Assembly: GCF_003185895.1 (NCBI RefSeq)
Contig: NZ_QHLY01000005.1
Span: 186,001-250,000 of the forward strand
Direction of reading: 5' to 3'
Length of the DNA stretch: 64,000 nt
Source of the DNA: Cryobacterium arcticum
Lineage (GTDB): Bacteria > Actinomycetota > Actinomycetes > Actinomycetales > Microbacteriaceae
The position numbers and the translations under genes are program-made. Below are positions 17,394-28,924 of this stretch, one piece after another (positions within the stretch are counted from its first letter, which is position 1; each line of letters begins with the position of its first letter). Below the pieces are notes generated by a model, which saw only the letters and a list, made by a program, of their open reading frames with translations, did not search any database and was not told the origin of the DNA.

Positions 17394-17942
17394 TCAGGCC
17401 ACGTCGACGGCGGGCACCAACGCGGCGAGGGCGGCCAGCTGGGCGACCAGCGCCCGCTCGTGCCGCTCAGACGGCAGAAAGACCTCGTCCACGATGTGCT
17501 CGGCGACCCAGGCGATCTCCACGTTGGCGGCGAGGACCCGCATACCCAGGTTCACCAGCACCGGCTGCAGCGCCGTCACCGCGCGGGTGCCGCCGGAGAG
17601 CCCGCCGTAACTCACCAGCCCCACCGGCTTGCCCGCCCACTCACCGTGCAGGTGGTTGATCGCGTTCTTCAGCGGGGCGCTGAAGCTGTGGTTGTACTCG
17701 GGCAGCACGAAGATCACCGCATCCGCGGCCTCCACCCGGCGGCTCCACTCCCAGGTGAGTTCGCTGGTGTACTGCTTGAGGCGCGGATGGTGTGGCTCGG
17801 CCAGCATCGGCAGCACAAACGCCGCGAGGTCCACCACATCCACCTCGGCCGTGGTCTGCCGCGCCGACTCGGCCACCCACTCGCCCACCGGCCCACCGGC
17901 CCGGCCCGACCGGGTGCTCGCGATCACCACCATCAGTCTCAT
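17394..17942 (-). CDS. NADPH-dependent FMN reductase-family protein
   Basis: A 182-residue flavodoxin-fold protein. It has the FMN phosphate loop MVVIASTRSGRAGGPVGEWV, the PEYNHSFSAPLKNAINHL motif typical of the SsuE/ArsH-like NADPH:FMN reductases, and VSYGGLSGGTRAV. It should reduce FMN or quinones with NAD(P)H in the cytoplasm. It overlaps the stop of the IclR gene by four bases (ATGA) and so is translated with it. It may supply reduced flavin for the catabolic operon on the other side of IclR, but that operon holds no flavin-dependent monooxygenase in this window. Confidence 0.85.
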   Translation of the reverse strand: MRLMVVIASTRSGRAGGPVGEWVAESARQTTAEVDVVDLAAFVLPMLAEPHHPRLKQYTSELTWEWSRRVEAADAVIFVLPEYNHSFSAPLKNAINHLHGEWAGKPVGLVSYGGLSGGTRAVTALQPVLVNLGMRVLAANVEIAWVAEHIVDEVFLPSERHERALVAQLAALAALVPAVDVA

Positions 17943-18745
17943 CTGGCCACGATCTCTCGCACGGGCCGCGCATCCCAGCGCGCCCAATCGGCACTGATTC
18001 CCTCGGCTGCGCGCAGCAACTGCGGCAGGTAGTCGTCGACCAGGGTCTGCATGCTGGTCTCATAGGCGTGGGTGTTGAGGTTGACGGCCGCGACGACCTC
18101 ACCCGCGCCATTGCGGATGGGCGCCGCGACCGACCGGATGGCCGGAGCCAGCTGTTGGTCGGTGATCGCCCAGCCGCGCTGCCGCACCTCGGCGAGCGCC
18201 GCGTCGATCTCGGCTCGATCGGGCGCCCAGACCGCGGTCACCGGCGAGCGGCTCGGCTCCGCGAGCGTCGCGTCGAGCGCGTGCGGTTCGAGCCAGGCCA
18301 GCAGCACCTTGCCGAGCGACGTGGGCACGGCGGGAAACCGGGTGCCGATCGTGACCGACAGCGCCACCAGTTTGGGCACGGCCACCCGGGCCACGTAGAC
18401 CACGTCGGAGCCGTCGAGCTGCGCCACCGAGCAGGATTCGTGTACGCGTTCGCTCAGCTCGGTGAGGTGCGGCCGCGACAGTTCCCAGATGTTGCTCGAG
18501 CAGACGTAGGCCATGCCGAGCTCGAGCACCCGGGGAGTGAGGCTGAAGCCGTCGTCGTCGCTTCGCACGTAGCCGAGCTCGGCGAGGGTGATCAGGATGC
18601 GCCGCGCGGTCGGCCGGGCCAGCCCGGTCACGGCCGCCACCTCGCTGAGGTTCATCCGGGGCCGCTCGGGCGCAAACGCTTTGAGCACGTCAAGCCCCCG
18701 GGCGATGGCCTCGATGAAATCGGGGCTCTCGGTGTCGCGTGCCAT
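17939..18745 (-). CDS. IclR-family transcriptional regulator
   Basis: A 268-residue regulator. The N-terminal winged helix is AIARGLDVLKAFAPERPRMNLSEVAAVTGLARPTARRIL, and the C-terminal IclR effector domain includes YVARVAVPKLVALSVTIGTRFPAVPTSLGKVLLA, like PcaR/PobR-type aromatic regulators. I chose the ATG at 18745. It is divergent from the five-gene operon starting at 18874, and the perfect TGTCCGC-CCA-GCGGACA repeat between them is its probable operator. The effector is probably an aromatic acid or a ring-cleavage product. Confidence 0.88.
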   Translation of the reverse strand: MARDTESPDFIEAIARGLDVLKAFAPERPRMNLSEVAAVTGLARPTARRILITLAELGYVRSDDDGFSLTPRVLELGMAYVCSSNIWELSRPHLTELSERVHESCSVAQLDGSDVVYVARVAVPKLVALSVTIGTRFPAVPTSLGKVLLAWLEPHALDATLAEPSRSPVTAVWAPDRAEIDAALAEVRQRGWAITDQQLAPAIRSVAAPIRNGAGEVVAAVNLNTHAYETSMQTLVDDYLPQLLRAAEGISADWARWDARPVREIVAR

Positions 18746-18833: not shown

Positions 18834-18850
18834 TGTCCGCCCAGCGGACA
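18834..18850. promoter_or_regulatory. IclR operator
   Basis: TGTCCGC (18834-18840) and GCGGACA (18844-18850) form a perfect inverted repeat with a 3-base spacer, just downstream of a TATAGA (18824-18829) that could be the -10 of the catabolic operon. IclR-family sites commonly have this TnCCGC/GCGGnA shape. Confidence 0.72.
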
Positions 18851-18873
18851 GTCGTCCGAAAAACCGAAAGGCA

Positions 18874-20136
18874 ATGATGCCTCACGCTTTCGTCCCGACG
18901 TCGACCCCGACGCCGACCGAGTCCTCGAGCAATACCGACGCGCCCGTCGATCAGGCCGGCCCGCTCGACGGGCTCCTGGTGGCCGACTTCTCCCGCGTGC
19001 TCGCCGGGCCGTACTCCACCCAGCTGATGGGCGATCTGGGTGCCACCATCGTGAAGGTCGAGGGGCCGGCCGGCGACGAGACCCGCGACTGGGCGCCCCC
19101 GGCCCGCGACGGCGTGTCCACTTACTACCTGGGCGTGAATCGCAACAAGCGCAGCGTCACCCTCAACCTCGCCGATGCCGGTGACCGTTCCCTCGCCCAG
19201 GAGCTCGCCCGCAGGGCCGACATTGTGATCGAGAACTTCAAGCCGGGCGGCCTGGCCAAGTTCGGCCTGGACTATGCCTCGGTGCGGGCCGAAAACCCGA
19301 CCGTGATCTACGCCTCGATCAGCGGCTTCGGCGCCGCCGGCGGTGCCGCGTTGCCGGGCTACGACCTGATCGTGCAGGCCATGAGCGGCCTGATGAGCCT
19401 CACCGGCGACGCCGATGGCACCCCGTTCCGCAGCGGGGTCTCGGTCTTCGACGTGATGACGGGCATGCAGGCCACCGTGGGCATCCTCGCCGCCCTCAAC
19501 CACCGCAACAGCACCGGCCAGGGTCAGCTGGTGCAGGTCAACCTGCTCTCCACCGCCCTCTCGGCCATGGCCAACCACAGCTCCACCTACGTCGCCGGCG
19601 GCACCGTGCCGTTCCGGATGGGCAACGCCCACCCCAGCCTCTTCCCCTACGAACCCCTGCCCGCCAGCGACGGCGACATCGTGATCGTGGCCGCCAACGA
19701 CACGCAGTTCGTGCGGCTGGCCACCGCGCTCGGCCACCCGGAGTGGGCCGACGACGACAGGTTCGCTCGTACGGTGGCCCGCAACGAGAACCGGAACGAC
19801 CTGCGCCCCCTGCTCGTGGCCGCGCTCGCCGGTAAAACCACCGCCGAGTGGTTCGACGAGCTCACCCGGGCCGGGGTGGCCTGCGGACCGATCAACACCA
19901 TCGACGGCGGAGTGGCTCTGGCCGAACGACTGGGCCTCGACCCCGTGGTGCAGGTCGGCGAGGGCGACTCCGCCATCCCCATGGTGCGCAACCCCATCGA
20001 CTTCTCCCTCACCCCCGCCCGGTACCTCTCGCCGCCGCCGACCCTGGGCCAGGATGCCGCCGAGATTCGCGCCTGGCTGTCCCAGCCCAACTCCGAACAC
20101 CGTGCGACCCCCTACGAGAGCGAGTTCGACCTGTGA
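18874..20136 (+). CDS. CaiB/BaiF-type (family III) CoA-transferase
   Basis: A 420-residue family III CoA-transferase. LVADFSRVLAGPYSTQLMGDLGATIVKVEGP is the family opening, and Asp164 in GYDLIVQAMSGLM is the expected catalytic residue that forms the mixed anhydride/thioester. The NHRNSTGQGQLVQVNLL segment is also typical. It moves CoA between a donor acyl-CoA and an organic acid. A 30-residue Thr/Pro/Ser-rich N terminus precedes the fold, so the real start may be further in. Its stop overlaps the GTG of the citryl-CoA-lyase-like gene, so the acid it activates is probably the substrate of that lyase. Confidence 0.88.
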   Translation: MMPHAFVPTSTPTPTESSSNTDAPVDQAGPLDGLLVADFSRVLAGPYSTQLMGDLGATIVKVEGPAGDETRDWAPPARDGVSTYYLGVNRNKRSVTLNLADAGDRSLAQELARRADIVIENFKPGGLAKFGLDYASVRAENPTVIYASISGFGAAGGAALPGYDLIVQAMSGLMSLTGDADGTPFRSGVSVFDVMTGMQATVGILAALNHRNSTGQGQLVQVNLLSTALSAMANHSSTYVAGGTVPFRMGNAHPSLFPYEPLPASDGDIVIVAANDTQFVRLATALGHPEWADDDRFARTVARNENRNDLRPLLVAALAGKTTAEWFDELTRAGVACGPINTIDGGVALAERLGLDPVVQVGEGDSAIPMVRNPIDFSLTPARYLSPPPTLGQDAAEIRAWLSQPNSEHRATPYESEFDL

Positions 20137-20930
20137 CCGACTACCCCACCGGCCTGGGCACCAGCGACCGCGACACCATCTCCCTGCTCGGCCACGACCT
20201 GGCCGGCGAGCTGCTCGGCACGGTCACCTTCGGCGAACTCGCCTTCTGGCTCGCCACCCAGCAGCGCCCCACTCCACAGCAGTTGCGGGTATTCGAGGCC
20301 GTGCTGGTGTCGCTGGCCGACCACGGCTTCACCCCCACCGCCATCGCCGCCCGGCTCACCTATTACTCCGCGCCCGACTCCCTGCAGGGCGCCATCGCGG
20401 CCGGGCTGCTCGGCGGCGGAAGCCGGTTCCTCGGCGTGACCGAAGACACCGGCAAATTCCTGCACACCGCCCTCGCCGGGCTCGGCGACACCACCGCCTT
20501 CACCGACGACGACTGGGATGCCGCGGCGCTCACCCTGCTCACCGAGACGAAGCAGCTCGGCCGCCGAGTGCCCGGCCTCGGCCACCCGGTGCACAAGGTA
20601 CGCGACCCGCGCACGGTCGTGATCATCCGCATCGCCGAGGAGGAGGGTGTGCGCGGGCCGCACCTGCGCCTGTTCGAGGCGATCGGCCGCACCAACGCCC
20701 TGGTGCTCGGCAAGGAGCTGCCCCTGAACGGCGCTGGCGTGGCAGGAGCCGCGCTGGCCGACCTCGGCCTGCCGATCGACCTGCTGCGCGGCTTCGCCCT
20801 GCTCGCCCGCACCGCCGGCCTGATCGGGCACCTCGCCGAGGAACGCGTCAACCCGATCGCCCCGGCCATCTACGCCGAGGTCGACCGCAACGCCGTGTAC
20901 GTGCCCAGCGCCGCCGCATCCGCCGAATAG
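20133..20930 (+). CDS. Citryl-CoA lyase / citrate synthase-like protein
   Basis: A 265-residue protein of the citrate synthase superfamily, shorter than citrate synthase (about 370-430). It has GLGHPVHKVRDPR (His151, His154, Asp158 region) and LIGHLAEE in the C-terminal part, as in citryl-CoA lyases that cleave citryl-CoA to acetyl-CoA and oxaloacetate. It starts at GTG 20133 within the CoA-transferase stop (GTGA). The pairing with a CoA-transferase copies the logic of citrate lyase, activation then retro-Claisen/aldol cleavage, but next to a ring-cleavage dioxygenase. The true substrate is therefore probably a citrate-like product of aromatic degradation. Confidence 0.8.
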   Translation: MTDYPTGLGTSDRDTISLLGHDLAGELLGTVTFGELAFWLATQQRPTPQQLRVFEAVLVSLADHGFTPTAIAARLTYYSAPDSLQGAIAAGLLGGGSRFLGVTEDTGKFLHTALAGLGDTTAFTDDDWDAAALTLLTETKQLGRRVPGLGHPVHKVRDPRTVVIIRIAEEEGVRGPHLRLFEAIGRTNALVLGKELPLNGAGVAGAALADLGLPIDLLRGFALLARTAGLIGHLAEERVNPIAPAIYAEVDRNAVYVPSAAASAE

Positions 20931-20960
20931 TCCGTAAAAGCACGTCTCGAAGGAGAGAAG

Positions 20961-21821
20961 ATGGCCACTCTGAGTGCGGTGCTCGCCACCACGCACCACC
21001 CGTTCTACCTCAAGGCCACCACGGCGCCGCCCGAGGAGCGGATGCCGCAGGCCGACGAGTGGAAGCGCAAGGTGGAGGCGTACCGGGAGACGCTCACCGT
21101 GGCCAAACCCGACATCCTGGTGATGGTCGGCGCCGACCACTTCCACCAGTTCTTCTCCGATAACTACCCCACCTTCCTCATCGGCAAACAGCCGATGTAC
21201 GACGCCACCTTCTACAACGAGACCCGCGAGTTCGGCCTGCCCACCTTTCTGCTGCAGGGCCACGAGGAACTCTCCGGCTACATGCTTCAGGGCCTGCTCG
21301 ACCGCGGCTTCGACTTCTCGGTCAGCCACGAACTCAAGATCGACCACTCGATCATCTGCCCGATCATCACCACCCGGCCAGATGCCGACCTGCCGATCGT
21401 GCCGATCTACACGAACATCTTCGCTCCCCCGCTGCCCAGCCCGAAGCGGTTCTGGGACCTGGGGCGGGCCATCCGTTCGATCATCGACGAGTGGCCGAGC
21501 GACCTGCGGGTGGCCGCGGTGGGCAGCGGGCACCTCTCGCTCGAGCTCGGCGGGCCGCGCCAGTTCGGCGAGACCGGGCCCGACCCCGAGTTCGACCTGC
21601 AGGCCATCGAGTGGCTGCGCACCGGCGACATCGACGGCATCCTCGCCAACGTCACCCACGAGAGCATGGCCGGCGCCGGCAACGCCACGCACGGTTTCAT
21701 GGACCTGATCCTGATGATGGGCATCGCCGGTCCGATCGAGGCGTCGTACGTCGACAGTCTCGACTTGTTCCACACCCGCGAGGCCTATGTGACCTGGTAC
21801 CCGGAGGGGGCGCCGTCGTGA
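20961..21821 (+). CDS. LigB-type extradiol ring-cleavage dioxygenase, catalytic subunit
   Basis: A 286-residue type II extradiol dioxygenase. His12/His13 in TTHHPFY and His59/His61 in VGADHFHQFF are the probable iron ligands and acid/base. GSGHLSLELGGPRQF and the C-terminal TWYPEG are typical of LigB/PmdB and DODA relatives. Fe(II)-dependent meta cleavage of a catechol-type ring is the expected reaction. It has a good AAGGAGAG ribosome binding site and overlaps the LigA-like gene by four bases, so the two subunits are made together. Confidence 0.85.
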   Translation: MATLSAVLATTHHPFYLKATTAPPEERMPQADEWKRKVEAYRETLTVAKPDILVMVGADHFHQFFSDNYPTFLIGKQPMYDATFYNETREFGLPTFLLQGHEELSGYMLQGLLDRGFDFSVSHELKIDHSIICPIITTRPDADLPIVPIYTNIFAPPLPSPKRFWDLGRAIRSIIDEWPSDLRVAAVGSGHLSLELGGPRQFGETGPDPEFDLQAIEWLRTGDIDGILANVTHESMAGAGNATHGFMDLILMMGIAGPIEASYVDSLDLFHTREAYVTWYPEGAPS

Positions 21822-22183
21822 GCATCTACTACGTGAACAAATTCCTCTTCCAGGTCGACGGTGACCCGGAGCTGCTCGCCCGGTACAAGGCCGACCCGGC
21901 CGAACTGGTGGCCTGGTGGGAGACCGAGCGCGGGCCATGGCTGAACCGGGTGGAACGCACCACCTGGCTGGGCTTCACCGAGACCGAACGCCGCGCGCTC
22001 GTCGGGCACGACTACGTGACCCTGTTCGAGCTCGGCGCGCACTTCTTCCTCTCGCTCACGATCTTCATCGCCCTGTACGACGCCGACTACGCCGCCCGCT
22101 CCGGCCCGCTGTCGTTCCAACGGGAGTACGCCGCCAACCTCGCGCACTGGATGGGCAAGGAGTACCCGAGCGTGGCCCTGTAG
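21818..22183 (+). CDS. LigA-like small subunit of the extradiol dioxygenase
   Basis: A 121-residue helical protein starting at GTG 21818 inside the stop of the LigB-like gene (GTGA). Residues 14-70 follow the LigA pattern: a run like DPELLARYKADP, then GFTETERRALVGHDYVTLFELGAHFF. In LigAB the small subunit caps the active site of LigB. It ends with GKEYPSVAL rather than the usual short tail. The overlapping start and fixed order support an alpha2beta2 dioxygenase of the protocatechuate 4,5-, gallate or related type. Confidence 0.78.
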   Translation: MSIYYVNKFLFQVDGDPELLARYKADPAELVAWWETERGPWLNRVERTTWLGFTETERRALVGHDYVTLFELGAHFFLSLTIFIALYDADYAARSGPLSFQREYAANLAHWMGKEYPSVAL

Positions 22184-22296
22184 CCACGCTCACCCGGCAC
22201 CACTCGTATCGGCACCGCACGCATCTGCACTCGCACCGCCGCAGCACCCGCACTCGTTCCGCTCTCACTCGTCCGACTAAGGCAAAGGAGCCCACC

Positions 22297-23766
22297 ATGC
22301 CCGTTCCCCCCATCCCCGCCCTGCCCGATCACGTGCTCCCTGGCACGGTCTTCCGCGACGCCACCGTGCTCACGATGGATGCCGGCCGGCAGATCCTGCC
22401 GCACACTGATGTGCTCGTCGTCGACGACGCCATCGCCGCGATCGGCCCGCACCTCGTTGTGCCCGACGGCACCTTCGAGATCGACGCGGCCGGCGGCATC
22501 CTGATGCCGGGCATGATCGACACCCACCGGCACATGTGGCAGACCGCGATGCGCGGCTACGGCGCCGACTGGACCCTCACCCAGTACTTCGTCTGGTATT
22601 ACCTCGAGCACGGCAAGCACTTCCGCCCGCAGGATGTCTACGCCGGCAACCTGCTCTCCTCGCTCGACGCCATCGACGCCGGCATCACCACCACGGTGGA
22701 CTGGTCGCACGGGCTTCGCACCATCGAGCATGCCGAGGCGGCGCTCGCGGCCCTGCAGGAGGCGCCCGGCCGCTCGGTGCTGGCCTACGGCAACATCTTC
22801 GCCGGCCCCTGGGAGTGGTCGGACTCCGACGAGTTCACGGCCTTCGCCGCCGCGCGGGAGAAGGGCAACGAGATGCTGGGCTTCCAGATGGCGTTCGACG
22901 TCACCGGCGACCCGGCCTTCCCCGAGCGGCGCGCGTTCGAGGTGGCCCGCGACCTCGACCTGGCCGTGACCACGCACGCCGGCGTGTGGGGCGCCACCAA
23001 CGACGACGGCATCCGGCTGATGTACGAGAACGGCTTCATGACCCCCGGCACGGTCTACGTGCACGCCGCCACCCTCTCCGACGACTCCTACCAGCGCATC
23101 GCCGCCACCGGCGGATCGGTGTCGCTCTCGACCGAGAGCGAACAGAGCTGCGGCCAGGGCTACCCGCCGTCGTGGGTGCTGCGCTCGCACGGCATCCCGG
23201 TGTCGCTGTCGGTGGACACCAGCGTGTGGTTCAGCAGCGACCTGTTCGCCGCCATGCGCACCACCCTCGGGGCCGACCGCTCGATCGAGCACATGAAGGC
23301 GCACGAGCTGGGCGAGACCGTCACCCACTCGCACCTGCGCGCCGAGCACGTTGTCGACTGGGCCACACGCGGCGGCGCTGCGGCGCTGGGCAAGGAGGCC
23401 ACGCTCGGTTCGATCGAGGTGGGCAAGAAGGCGGATGTGGTGCTGGTGAAGAACGACGCCTCGCCGTCGATGTTCCCGGTGCTGAACCCCTACGGCCACA
23501 TCGCCCTGCAGGCCAACCGGGCCGACGTGCACACCGTGCTGGTGAACGGGAAGATCGTGAAGTACGGGCACGCCCTGGTCGGCGACCAGCTCGCGGCGGC
23601 CCGCACCGCGGTGGAGGACACCGTCACGCACCTGCAGTCCACCCTCGGCGACGAGGTGTGGAAGGCGGGCATGAACCCCGACATCCCGGCGACGAAGATC
23701 CTCGACAACCCGTACACCTACACGGAGTACCGTACGAGCTCCACGCACGAGGCCGCTGAGGTCTGA
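22297..23766 (+). CDS. Amidohydrolase of the ATZ/TRZ (cytosine-deaminase-like) family
   Basis: A 489-residue metal-dependent hydrolase with a composite beta-sandwich and TIM barrel. Metal ligands are His77 and His79 in IDTHRHMWQ, the His of TTHAGVWG and that of YVHAATLSD, and the Asp of SLSVDTSVWFS. LGSIEVGKKADVVLV is the closing sandwich signature. Members deaminate or dechlorinate heterocycles or cleave amides. The ATG at 22297 follows AAAGGAG after a 113-base spacer from the LigA-like gene. As the last operon gene it may prepare a nitrogenous ring or amide substrate for the dioxygenase. Confidence 0.85.
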   Translation: MPVPPIPALPDHVLPGTVFRDATVLTMDAGRQILPHTDVLVVDDAIAAIGPHLVVPDGTFEIDAAGGILMPGMIDTHRHMWQTAMRGYGADWTLTQYFVWYYLEHGKHFRPQDVYAGNLLSSLDAIDAGITTTVDWSHGLRTIEHAEAALAALQEAPGRSVLAYGNIFAGPWEWSDSDEFTAFAAAREKGNEMLGFQMAFDVTGDPAFPERRAFEVARDLDLAVTTHAGVWGATNDDGIRLMYENGFMTPGTVYVHAATLSDDSYQRIAATGGSVSLSTESEQSCGQGYPPSWVLRSHGIPVSLSVDTSVWFSSDLFAAMRTTLGADRSIEHMKAHELGETVTHSHLRAEHVVDWATRGGAAALGKEATLGSIEVGKKADVVLVKNDASPSMFPVLNPYGHIALQANRADVHTVLVNGKIVKYGHALVGDQLAAARTAVEDTVTHLQSTLGDEVWKAGMNPDIPATKILDNPYTYTEYRTSSTHEAAEV

Positions 23767-23798
23767 GCCGGAATCGGTCGCCCCGCGGAACGGCGCCA

Positions 23799-23835
23799 GA
23801 CCCGCGCATCGCCGACCGATCCGGATGCGCGGGTC
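23799..23835 (+). terminator. Terminator of the catabolic operon
   Basis: GACCCGCGCATC (23799-23810) and GATGCGCGGGTC (23824-23835) are a perfect 12-base inverted repeat with a 13-base loop, 32 bases after the amidohydrolase stop and before the convergent membrane-protein gene. It can act on both strands. Confidence 0.78.
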
Positions 23836-27713: not shown

Positions 27714-28118
27714 ATGCCTCAGATACGGATAAAAGACGCCGCGGCCTTTTTGAGCGTGAGCGACGACACCGTGCGCCGCTGGATCGACAACGGCACCTTG
27801 CCGAGTTCCAAGGACGCCTCGTCGCGCACCGTCGTCGACGGTCTGGCGCTGGCGCAGCTGGCCCGCAAGAACGCGGTGCTGCCCGAGGACCCGTCCGAGA
27901 TCGGCCGATCCGCCCGCAACCGGTTCGTCGGCCTGGTGACCGACATCGTCATGGACAAGGTGATGGCCCAGGTCGAGATCCAGTGCGGACCACACCGGGT
28001 CGTGTCGCTCATGAGCAGCGAAGCCGTGCGCGAGCTCGGCCTCGAGCTCGGCTCCGTCGCCATCGCCGTGGTCAAGGCCACCACCGTCATCGTCGAAACC
28101 CCCTCCGGAAAGCTCTGA
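27714..28118 (+). CDS. Helix-turn-helix/TOBE (Mop-like) molybdate-responsive regulator
   Basis: A 134-residue protein. Residues 5-45 form an excisionase/MerR-like helix-turn-helix (IKDAAAFLSVSDDTVRRWIDNGTLPS). Residues 68-134 form one TOBE/Mop domain (RNRFVGLVTDIVMDKVMAQVEIQCGPHRVVSLMSSEAV), which binds molybdate or tungstate in oligomers. It stands 2 bases before modA and probably replaces ModE as oxyanion-sensing repressor of the operon. Start chosen at ATG 27714; the longer open frame upstream runs through the HxlR gene. Confidence 0.87.
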   Translation: MPQIRIKDAAAFLSVSDDTVRRWIDNGTLPSSKDASSRTVVDGLALAQLARKNAVLPEDPSEIGRSARNRFVGLVTDIVMDKVMAQVEIQCGPHRVVSLMSSEAVRELGLELGSVAIAVVKATTVIVETPSGKL

Positions 28119-28120
28119 TC

Positions 28121-28924
28121 GTGCCCCGCACCTCCCCCTCCGGCCGTGTCGTCGCGCTCATCGGTCTGGCCGCGCTCGTGCTGACCGGATGCGCCACCGC
28201 CACCCCCGCCGCATCCACCCCCACTCCGTCTGCCTCGGCCGCCGCCCTCGACGGCGACATCACCGTCTTCGCCGCGGCCTCGCTTAAGGCCACCTTCACC
28301 GAGCTGGCCGCCTCGTTCGAGGCCGAGAACCCGGGCACCACCGTGGCCCTGAACTTCGCCGGCTCGTCGGACCTGGTCACCCAGATCATCGAGGGCGCTC
28401 CCGCCGACGTTTTCGCCTCCGCCGACACCAAGAACATGACCAAGCTCACCGATGAGTCCTTGGCCGCGGGCGACCCGGTCGACTTCGCCACCAACGTGCT
28501 CGAGATCGCGGTGCCGCCGGGCAACCCGGCCGGCATCGTCGACTTCGCCGACCTGGCCAGCCCCGACGTGAAGCTCGTCGTCTGCGCCCCGGAGGTGCCC
28601 TGCGGTTCCGCCACCGCCACCGTGGCAGCCGCCGCCGACCTCACCCTCACTCCGGTGAGCGAAGAGTCCTCGGTCACCGATGTTCTCGGCAAGGTCACCT
28701 CGGGCGAAGCGGATGCCGGCCTGGTCTACGTCACCGACGTCACGGCCGCGGGCGACGCGGTCGAGGGCATCGATTTCGCAGAGTCCGCGGAGGCCGTGAA
28801 CACCTACCCGATCGTGGCGCTGAAGGATTCGGCATCCGCGGACGTGGCCCAGGCCTTCGTCGACTACATCACCGGCGGCGCGGGTGCCGACGTGCTGCAG
28901 ACCGCGGGCTTCGGGGCGCCGTAG
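28121..28924 (+). CDS. modA: Molybdate ABC transporter substrate-binding lipoprotein
   Basis: A 267-residue lipoprotein. A signal peptide ends in the lipobox LTGC near residue 24, then a Thr/Pro/Ser/Ala linker. The mature domain shows the ModA pattern [40 protein letters not shown] and a late DAGLVYVTD. It captures molybdate at the cell surface. The start is GTG at 28121, only 2 bases after the regulator stop, and modB follows after 4 bases, so the order regulator-modA-modB-modC is one transcript. Confidence 0.92.

Follow-up and report, generated by a model that had tools for sequence, protein, structure and literature searches.

A 64,000-nucleotide stretch of the Cryobacterium arcticum contig NZ_QHLY01000005.1 (assembly GCF_003185895.1, positions 186,001 to 250,000), referred to here as the window, carries a predicted five-gene operon on its plus strand that stands behind a divergent iclR gene and is, on its sequence features, a real unit. 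As proposed in the initial annotation, genes for a coenzyme A (CoA)-transferase, a citrate-synthase-like lyase, LigB, LigA and an amidohydrolase-fold protein (hereafter the hydrolase) follow one another downstream of an IclR palindrome, and this order was borne out by Pfam, NCBIfam and profile matches (Table 1), with a clear Pfam assignment for every operon protein except LigA. Both the lyase gene and ligA start with GTG and overlap the preceding gene (CoA-transferase and ligB, respectively) by 4 nt, and 113 bp separate ligA from the hydrolase gene. The operon is read here, with slightly better than even confidence, as a regulated pathway for aromatic ring cleavage whose lower half depends on CoA, in which a 1,2,3-triol would be opened and a lyase would release acetyl-CoA and a keto acid.

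Conservation argues that these genes act together, as had been suggested for the CoA-transferase, the lyase and the dioxygenase. Among 199 Microbacteriaceae genomes, the LigB query gave 33 matches at E 1e-3, only 10 of them at 77-100% identity (next best 36%), and the lyase query matched 49, only 10 of them at 70-100% identity (next best 35%). The same 10 genomes were recovered with both queries, and in all of them LigB, LigA and the transferase lie inside a 3.7-kb lyase locus. A wider comparison was based on 80 named LigB loci (L numbers), the best 80 of 121 from a scan of species genomes, with gene tallies taken from tblastn tables that depend on the chosen bit-score thresholds and on contig ends. 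LigA was found in all 80 loci, the lyase in 70, the CoA-transferase in 69 and the hydrolase in 52, and transferase and lyase were both located within 10 kb of LigB in 69 of the 80. A transferase of the window type (>55% identity) was restricted to 24 loci, all from Actinobacteria, and a Ktedonobacteraceae contig (L110) carries a window-type lyase and ends before any transferase. In the alphaproteobacterial loci, LigB is 70-85% identical to the window protein, the transferase and the hydrolase ~30% and the lyase 35-41%; there, transferase and lyase stand before LigB, after it or divergent from it. The gene set is conserved as a unit, whereas its order is not kept in the alphaproteobacterial copies, which are differently arranged and ~30-40% identical. 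Because transferase and lyase have diverged so strongly and are still linked to LigB, this linkage constitutes strong evidence, at the level of sequence comparison, for one pathway.

Table 1. Features of the operon and its immediate surroundings (window coordinates)
Feature	Position	Strand	Support
NADPH-dependent FMN reductase family protein; possible quinone reductase	17394-17945	-	PF03358 125 bits
IclR-type regulator near PcaR/PcaU/PobR subfamily	17939-18745	-	PF01614, PF09339; TIGR02431 280.1 bits
Putative operator palindrome TGTCCGCCCAGCGGACA, followed by an imperfect third half-site	18834-18850	.	sequence pattern
Class III (CaiB-type) CoA-transferase	18874-20136	+	PF02515 392 bits
Short citrate-synthase-fold lyase, catalytic Asp lost	20133-20930	+	NF004868 274.7 bits vs cut-off 193
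LigB-family ring-cleaving dioxygenase, large subunit	20961-21821	+	PF02900 95 bits vs cut-off 26.3
LigA-like small subunit	21818-22183	+	profile comparison E 6.3e-8
Amidohydrolase-superfamily metal enzyme; proposed hydratase/lactonase for the ring-fission product	22297-23766	+	PF01979 93.5 bits
Perfect 12-bp inverted repeat; possible terminator, T-tract absent	23799-23835	+	sequence

The lyase proved more unusual than the initial annotation suggested. It exceeds the cut-off of the NCBIfam "citryl-CoA lyase" model NF004868 (PRK06224), its best PDB match is the citryl-CoA lyase 6hxp (5.1e-24), and it shares with that group the short citrate-synthase C-domain and the residues His64, His151 and Arg160. 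The catalytic triad of citrate synthase consists of His, His and Asp, whereas the window protein has Ala201 at the Asp position of the "LNvDG" motif, and the members examined have Ala, Ser or Thr there. In a 92-sequence alignment, the two catalytic-site His are retained in 90 and 92 sequences and the Arg in all 92. That alignment repeats some genomes (L111-L120), and a recount per locus over the 70 named loci with a lyase gave Ser in 45, Ala in 25 and Asp in none. Unlinked relatives and citrate synthases alone carried Asp or Glu at this site (seven of eight from L121-L129, with Val in L121). Likewise, the NF004868 subfamily, which was above cut-off in 35 of 246 Actinomycetes genomes and in none of 14 control genomes, lacked the Asp in all 30 loci examined (28 Ala, 2 Thr). 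The wider lyase family is a large one, all 8000 candidates scored being matches, possibly including citrate synthases. Since the Asp used for catalysis by citrate synthase and citryl-CoA lyase has been lost, citryl-CoA itself is an unlikely substrate, and the protein differs from an ordinary citryl-CoA lyase.

The company kept by this lyase outside LigB loci points to a CoA thioester. Among 20 NF004868 regions compared, seven contained LigB and 13 did not, and in eight of these 13 one of the tested CoA-activating enzymes was present: an AMP-forming acyl-CoA ligase adjoining the lyase (L185, L186, L193, L199), a CaiB-type transferase (L189, L197 and L194, whose contig ends directly after the lyase) or, separated from the lyase by one gene, a CoA-transferase of family PF01144 (L195). 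L186 also encodes a mycothiol maleylpyruvate-isomerase-type protein, which points to a LigB-free pathway for the Asp-less lyase. The CoA-transferase of the window retains the catalytic Asp164 found in 81 of 82 aligned sequences, the remaining one having a gap. It shares its family and this Asp with the dicarboxylate class III CoA-transferases (succinate--glutarate, succinyl-CoA:mesaconate) and differs from them in scoring far below the equivalog cut-offs; the best NCBIfam model, succinate--glutarate CoA-transferase, gave 343.8 bits against a cut-off of 750.

The dioxygenase belongs to the class III extradiol enzymes, with LigB clearly above the PF02900 gathering score and PDB matches to gallate dioxygenase (2.3e-18) and protocatechuate 4,5-dioxygenase (8.7e-18). 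It has in common with LigAB and DesB the LigB and LigA subunits and His12, His60 and His129 (window numbering), and all 92 relatives compared keep His12, 13, 60, 62, 129, 191 and 271. The relationship is nevertheless distant (E ~1e-18 in the PDB search). At the position of the GLSH base (DesB His192), the window protein reads GHLSL, so that the base is not found in place: Leu194 occupies it in all 92 sequences and the invariant His191 lies three residues earlier. The region of the Glu iron ligand aligns with gaps; by eye a Gly faces the Glu, and Glu234 is shared by 68 of the 92 sequences. This ligand has no clear counterpart and is probably not conserved, and the invariant His271 may be a candidate third iron ligand, as in DODA-type enzymes, where a His serves in that role. 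For LigA, neither a Pfam match at 1e-3 nor a PDB match at E 1 was obtained; a profile comparison with two annotated alpha chains and three gallate-dioxygenase C-domains gave an hhalign probability of 94.7 (the E-value in Table 1 refers to that single comparison).

Substrate assignment to gallate or protocatechuate was not upheld. In a low-identity alignment with three annotated gallate dioxygenases, DesB Thr13, Thr267, Tyr391', Tyr412' and Glu377' were not conserved in the window LigBA; in the portion of the DesB study available, these residues hold the carboxylate and OH-5 of gallate (PMC3962378). Their absence makes gallate less likely and favours either a ring that lacks this carboxylate or another binding mode. 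Furthermore, LigB fell far below the cut-offs of the NCBIfam gallate and protocatechuate dioxygenase models. A gallate dioxygenase proper was accordingly rejected as a candidate.

A second line of evidence on the substrate comes from loci in which LigBA is replaced. The place that LigBA has in other loci is taken in L189 and L197 by a protein carrying the intradiol-dioxygenase domains PF00775 and PF04444. Of 394 Actinomycetes genomes searched for this protein (E 1e-60), 44 gave a match, and 30 loci were compared with flanks of ~1.5 kb. Within the clade of at least 57% identity, eight of nine loci, the query included, had transferase and/or lyase within this distance, as against none of the 21 more distant loci (at most 51% identity). 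Six of the eight module-linked genomes had no LigB match, one had a weak relative of 79 bits and one (G493) had LigB; conversely, no relative of the intradiol enzyme occurred in any of the 80 named LigB loci, and the only PF00775 match in the window genome is partial (37.5 bits). The L189 set comprises a flavin-dependent monooxygenase, a hydrolase, an amidohydrolase, the intradiol enzyme, transferase and lyase. Its upper genes (MhpA-like monooxygenase, pseudooxynicotine-hydrolase-like hydrolase and amidohydrolase) are those of the Rhodococcus locus L143, which has LigBA, and the LigBA locus L187 shares the latter two with it. The best NCBIfam model for the intradiol clade was chlorocatechol 1,2-dioxygenase, at 146.5 and 159.6 bits against a cut-off of 359, and the clade may be of hydroxyquinol type.

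An extradiol cut beside a third hydroxyl, as in gallate, and an intradiol cut lead to one and the same dicarboxylate. The simplest substrate that the extradiol and intradiol enzymes could share is thus a ring with three adjacent hydroxyls, from which both would yield one product. Should the intradiol clade prove to be of hydroxyquinol type, 1,2,3,5-tetrahydroxybenzene would fit both cleavage patterns. The partial texts available report this compound as a central intermediate in fungi (PMC13094099) and a tetrahydroxybenzene in brown algae (PMC13412289).

For the hydrolase, the metal-binding residues HxH, H, H and D are kept in 63 of 63 relatives, and it scored 365.1 bits against NF006056 (cut-off 391). 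The cog0402 deaminases carry a Glu in an HxxE motif, which was present in none of the 63. Because this Glu is absent from all of these relatives, the nitrogen-containing starting compound envisaged in the initial annotation is not indicated. The amidohydrolase superfamily also includes LigJ (4-oxalomesaconate hydratase) and LigI (pyrone lactonase), so that the protein could equally be a hydratase or a lactonase, and by analogy such a role is favoured; a KpiC-like dioxygenase role is a less favoured possibility. Aconitase-family genes (LeuD-like in L062, L063, L068 and L143; LeuC-like near the lyase in L190) may take the hydratase step in those other loci. In keeping with the initial annotation, the 4-carboxy-4-hydroxy-2-oxoadipate (CHA) aldolase of textbook 4,5-cleavage was not found: the model TIGR02798 had no match at E 1e-3 anywhere in the window genome.

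Regulation of the operon by the IclR protein is plausible. PcaR/PcaU/PobR regulators bind operators composed of a palindrome and a further half-site. The window regulator resembles them in this layout and in its TIGR02431 score, and differs in that the score lies just under the model cut-off of 284.75, leaving it outside the defined subfamily. The palindrome, TGTCCGC-CCA-GCGGACA, is perfect over 17 bp. A scan of the 4.3-Mb genome gave one site with its pattern and likewise one site for a control pattern read backwards, so that uniqueness alone carries no weight. The operator call follows instead from the position of the palindrome and from the recurrence of its six-base arms ahead of the transferase gene in other actinobacterial loci. 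The scan covered the 24 loci with a window-type transferase, namely that of the congener L031 and 23 others. The palindrome is identical in L031, and the arms recur around another centre in eight of the 23 (L032, L033, L034, L035, L042, L064, L067, L074); 15 of the 24 loci gave no match. A further half-site adjoins the palindrome in L034, L035, L067 and L074, at the spacing of PcaU-type operators. An IclR homologue occurs in 66 of the 80 named loci, and the regulator is proposed to act on the operon from this palindrome. At the other end, closure by a terminator, as initially annotated, is partly supported. A perfect 12-bp hairpin is present (arms 23799-23810 and 23824-23835), but it has no T-tract and was not called by the terminator scan; the 107-nt stretch containing it gave a folding z of -1.7, with 10 of 200 shuffles equally good.

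Taken together, the gene set, the palindrome, its conservation, the CoA-activating neighbours of the lyase in most of its contexts, the loss of Asp and the exchange of LigAB for an intradiol enzyme form the sequence-level support for the proposed pathway, from which its substrate and every reaction are inferred. The ring opened by LigBA would be polyhydroxylated, with the cut most likely falling between two hydroxylated carbons of a 1,2,3-triol (pyrogallol-type, possibly 1,2,3,5-tetrahydroxybenzene), and a muconate-like dicarboxylate would result. The metal hydrolase would hydrate the ring-fission product or open its lactone, the CoA-transferase would form the CoA thioester with succinyl-CoA as the probable donor, and the Asp-less citrate-synthase-like enzyme would cut the C-C bond beside the thioester to release acetyl-CoA together with a keto acid. 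A more specific version, offered tentatively and held to be rather doubtful, would lead 1,2,3-trihydroxy- and 1,2,3,5-tetrahydroxybenzenes through LigBA or the intradiol enzyme to 2-hydroxymuconate- or 2,4-dioxoadipate-type acids, then to the CoA thioester and to retro-Claisen cleavage by the Asp-less enzyme. Such rings could derive from hydroxylated phloroglucinol, tannin, flavonoid or brown-algal phenols. Hydrolytic cleavage of 2,4-dioxoadipyl-CoA would yield oxaloacetate and acetyl-CoA, which are the products of citryl-CoA lyase and would explain why that fold was recruited. Of the initial proposal, CoA activation and cleavage of a ring-fission product is therefore retained on the strength of the linkage, whereas citryl-CoA lyase as stated, the nitrogen compound and gallate are not. 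Fungal enzymes acting on 1,2,3,5-tetrahydroxybenzene belong to other families (a DUF family, short proteins). A central 1,2,3,5-tetrahydroxybenzene pathway in fungi, reportedly described by Martins et al. (2024) and mentioned in PMC13094099, would share the proposed ring-cleavage intermediate.

Several observations weigh against a single CoA-dependent pathway built around LigBA. Transferase, lyase or both are missing from 11 of the 80 LigB loci (L052, L061, L071, L091, L093, L103, L104, L107-L110), of which two (L091, L110) are truncated where their contigs end and several others have full flanks, and 28 of the 80 have no hydrolase above the bit-score threshold. Moreover, five of the 13 LigB-free lyase regions (L190, L191, L192, L200, L201) have no tested CoA-activating enzyme; a ligase is suggested by eye in L191, and none was recognised in the other four. 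The lyase lacks the Asp used in the mechanism of its relatives. With regard to the dioxygenase exchange, G493 also holds a LigB of the window family on another contig, and L214 is an intradiol locus without the transferase/lyase module. A CHA aldolase was above cut-off elsewhere in the genome in eight of 10 relatives tested. Finally, LigBA occurs in a second setting from which CoA-transferase and lyase are absent (L093, L103, L104, L107, L108, L109, L142, L145), with cytochrome P450 family members identified by clustering of open reading frames and confirmed by Pfam in L103; annotations in L142 and L145 include a P450, a sensor kinase (VirA-like in L142) and a cytochrome c peroxidase. Given these P450-type loci and a gene of the FAA-hydrolase (fumarylacetoacetate hydrolase) family in L142 and L107, LigBA may feed another lower route and is not tied to one.

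Other explanations of the operon were weighed against the same evidence. The tricarboxylic route of the initial annotation would be a 4,5-cleavage of gallate or protocatechuate with a new ending, in which LigBA forms 4-oxalomesaconate, the hydrolase hydrates it, and transferase and lyase split CHA-CoA. The PDB matches of LigB, the LeuD- and LeuC-like genes, which suit a citrate-like acid, and the missing TIGR02798 aldolase all agree with it; the loss of the gallate-binding residues of DesB and the low scores against the gallate and protocatechuate models make it unlikely. The enzyme that gives both routes their ending might also be no C-C lyase at all, and the Asp-less protein might instead act as a CoA-ester hydrolase, a hydratase or an accessory protein. 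The uniform loss of Asp (70 of 70 named loci, 30 of 30 NF004868 loci) would be accounted for in this way, but retention of both His and the Arg would not, and a pure thioesterase acting after a CoA-transferase would be futile; this explanation is considered distinctly improbable.

Less probable still, by a little, is a hydroxypyridine route akin to mimosine or 4-hydroxypyridine breakdown, in which the amidohydrolase would act on an N-formyl or amide product or serve as a KpiC-like second dioxygenase. The partial text of PMC7356986 describes KpiC as a 3,4-dihydroxypyridine dioxygenase from the amidohydrolase family and assigns PydA to the LigB family. In addition, an accessory hydrolase in L040 resembles 2,6-dihydroxypseudooxynicotine hydrolase (103.8 bits). 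However, CoA has no occurrence (0) in the part of that 4-hydroxypyridine paper available, the hydrolase of the window lacks the deaminase Glu, and the PydA motifs DDHFENH and EWICGM, as given in the accessible part of PMC3637104, are absent from the window LigB, which reads GADHFHQ. A PydA-type hydroxypyridine dioxygenase was rejected on these motifs.

If the pathway with a CoA-dependent lower half is correct, LigAB-type ring cleavage would gain a second ending besides that by hydratase and aldolase, spread over Actinobacteria, rhizobia and Rhodobacterales. It would also assign a role to the subfamily that at present bears the label citryl-CoA lyase, whose loss of Asp conflicts with the textbook mechanism, and would provide a bacterial gene set for testing the breakdown of tannin-, flavonoid- and phlorotannin-derived polyhydroxybenzenes. 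The exchange of extradiol for intradiol cleavage before one lower pathway yields a sharp chemical prediction. Many carrier genera are presumably plant-associated or marine, as judged by genus. No description of this gene set or route was found in the open-licence PubMed Central (PMC) literature, judged by titles and abstract openings, and the word dioxygenase is absent from the available portion of a Rhizobium rhizosphere paper (PMC3333776).

Further observations concern the surroundings of the module. The FMN-reductase-family gene downstream of iclR overlaps its 3' end by 7 bp, and a relative was found in nine of the 80 named LigB loci, all nine actinobacterial; different FMN_red proteins are present in alphaproteobacterial loci. 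Elsewhere in the window (27714-28924), a Mop-type helix-turn-helix regulator is followed by a ModA-like molybdate-binding protein, as judged by eye, an arrangement that looks ordinary. The PDB matches of two transporter binding proteins were too distant for a ligand to be named. Between the window and the Cryobacterium congener L031, the LigB protein is 100% identical, with IclR, CoA-transferase, lyase, LigA and hydrolase at 89-96%; at the DNA level, ligB is 94.0% and the CoA-transferase gene 87.2% identical. In the alphaproteobacterial loci L070, L084, L085, L092, L095, L102 and L141, a MetE/URO-D-like methyltransferase gene lies beside the module and may reflect a demethylation step. The two Bradyrhizobium copies (L057 and L077) have a Cache-domain chemoreceptor nearby, tested by Pfam in L057 (L057:14130-15812), which suggests chemotaxis to the substrate.

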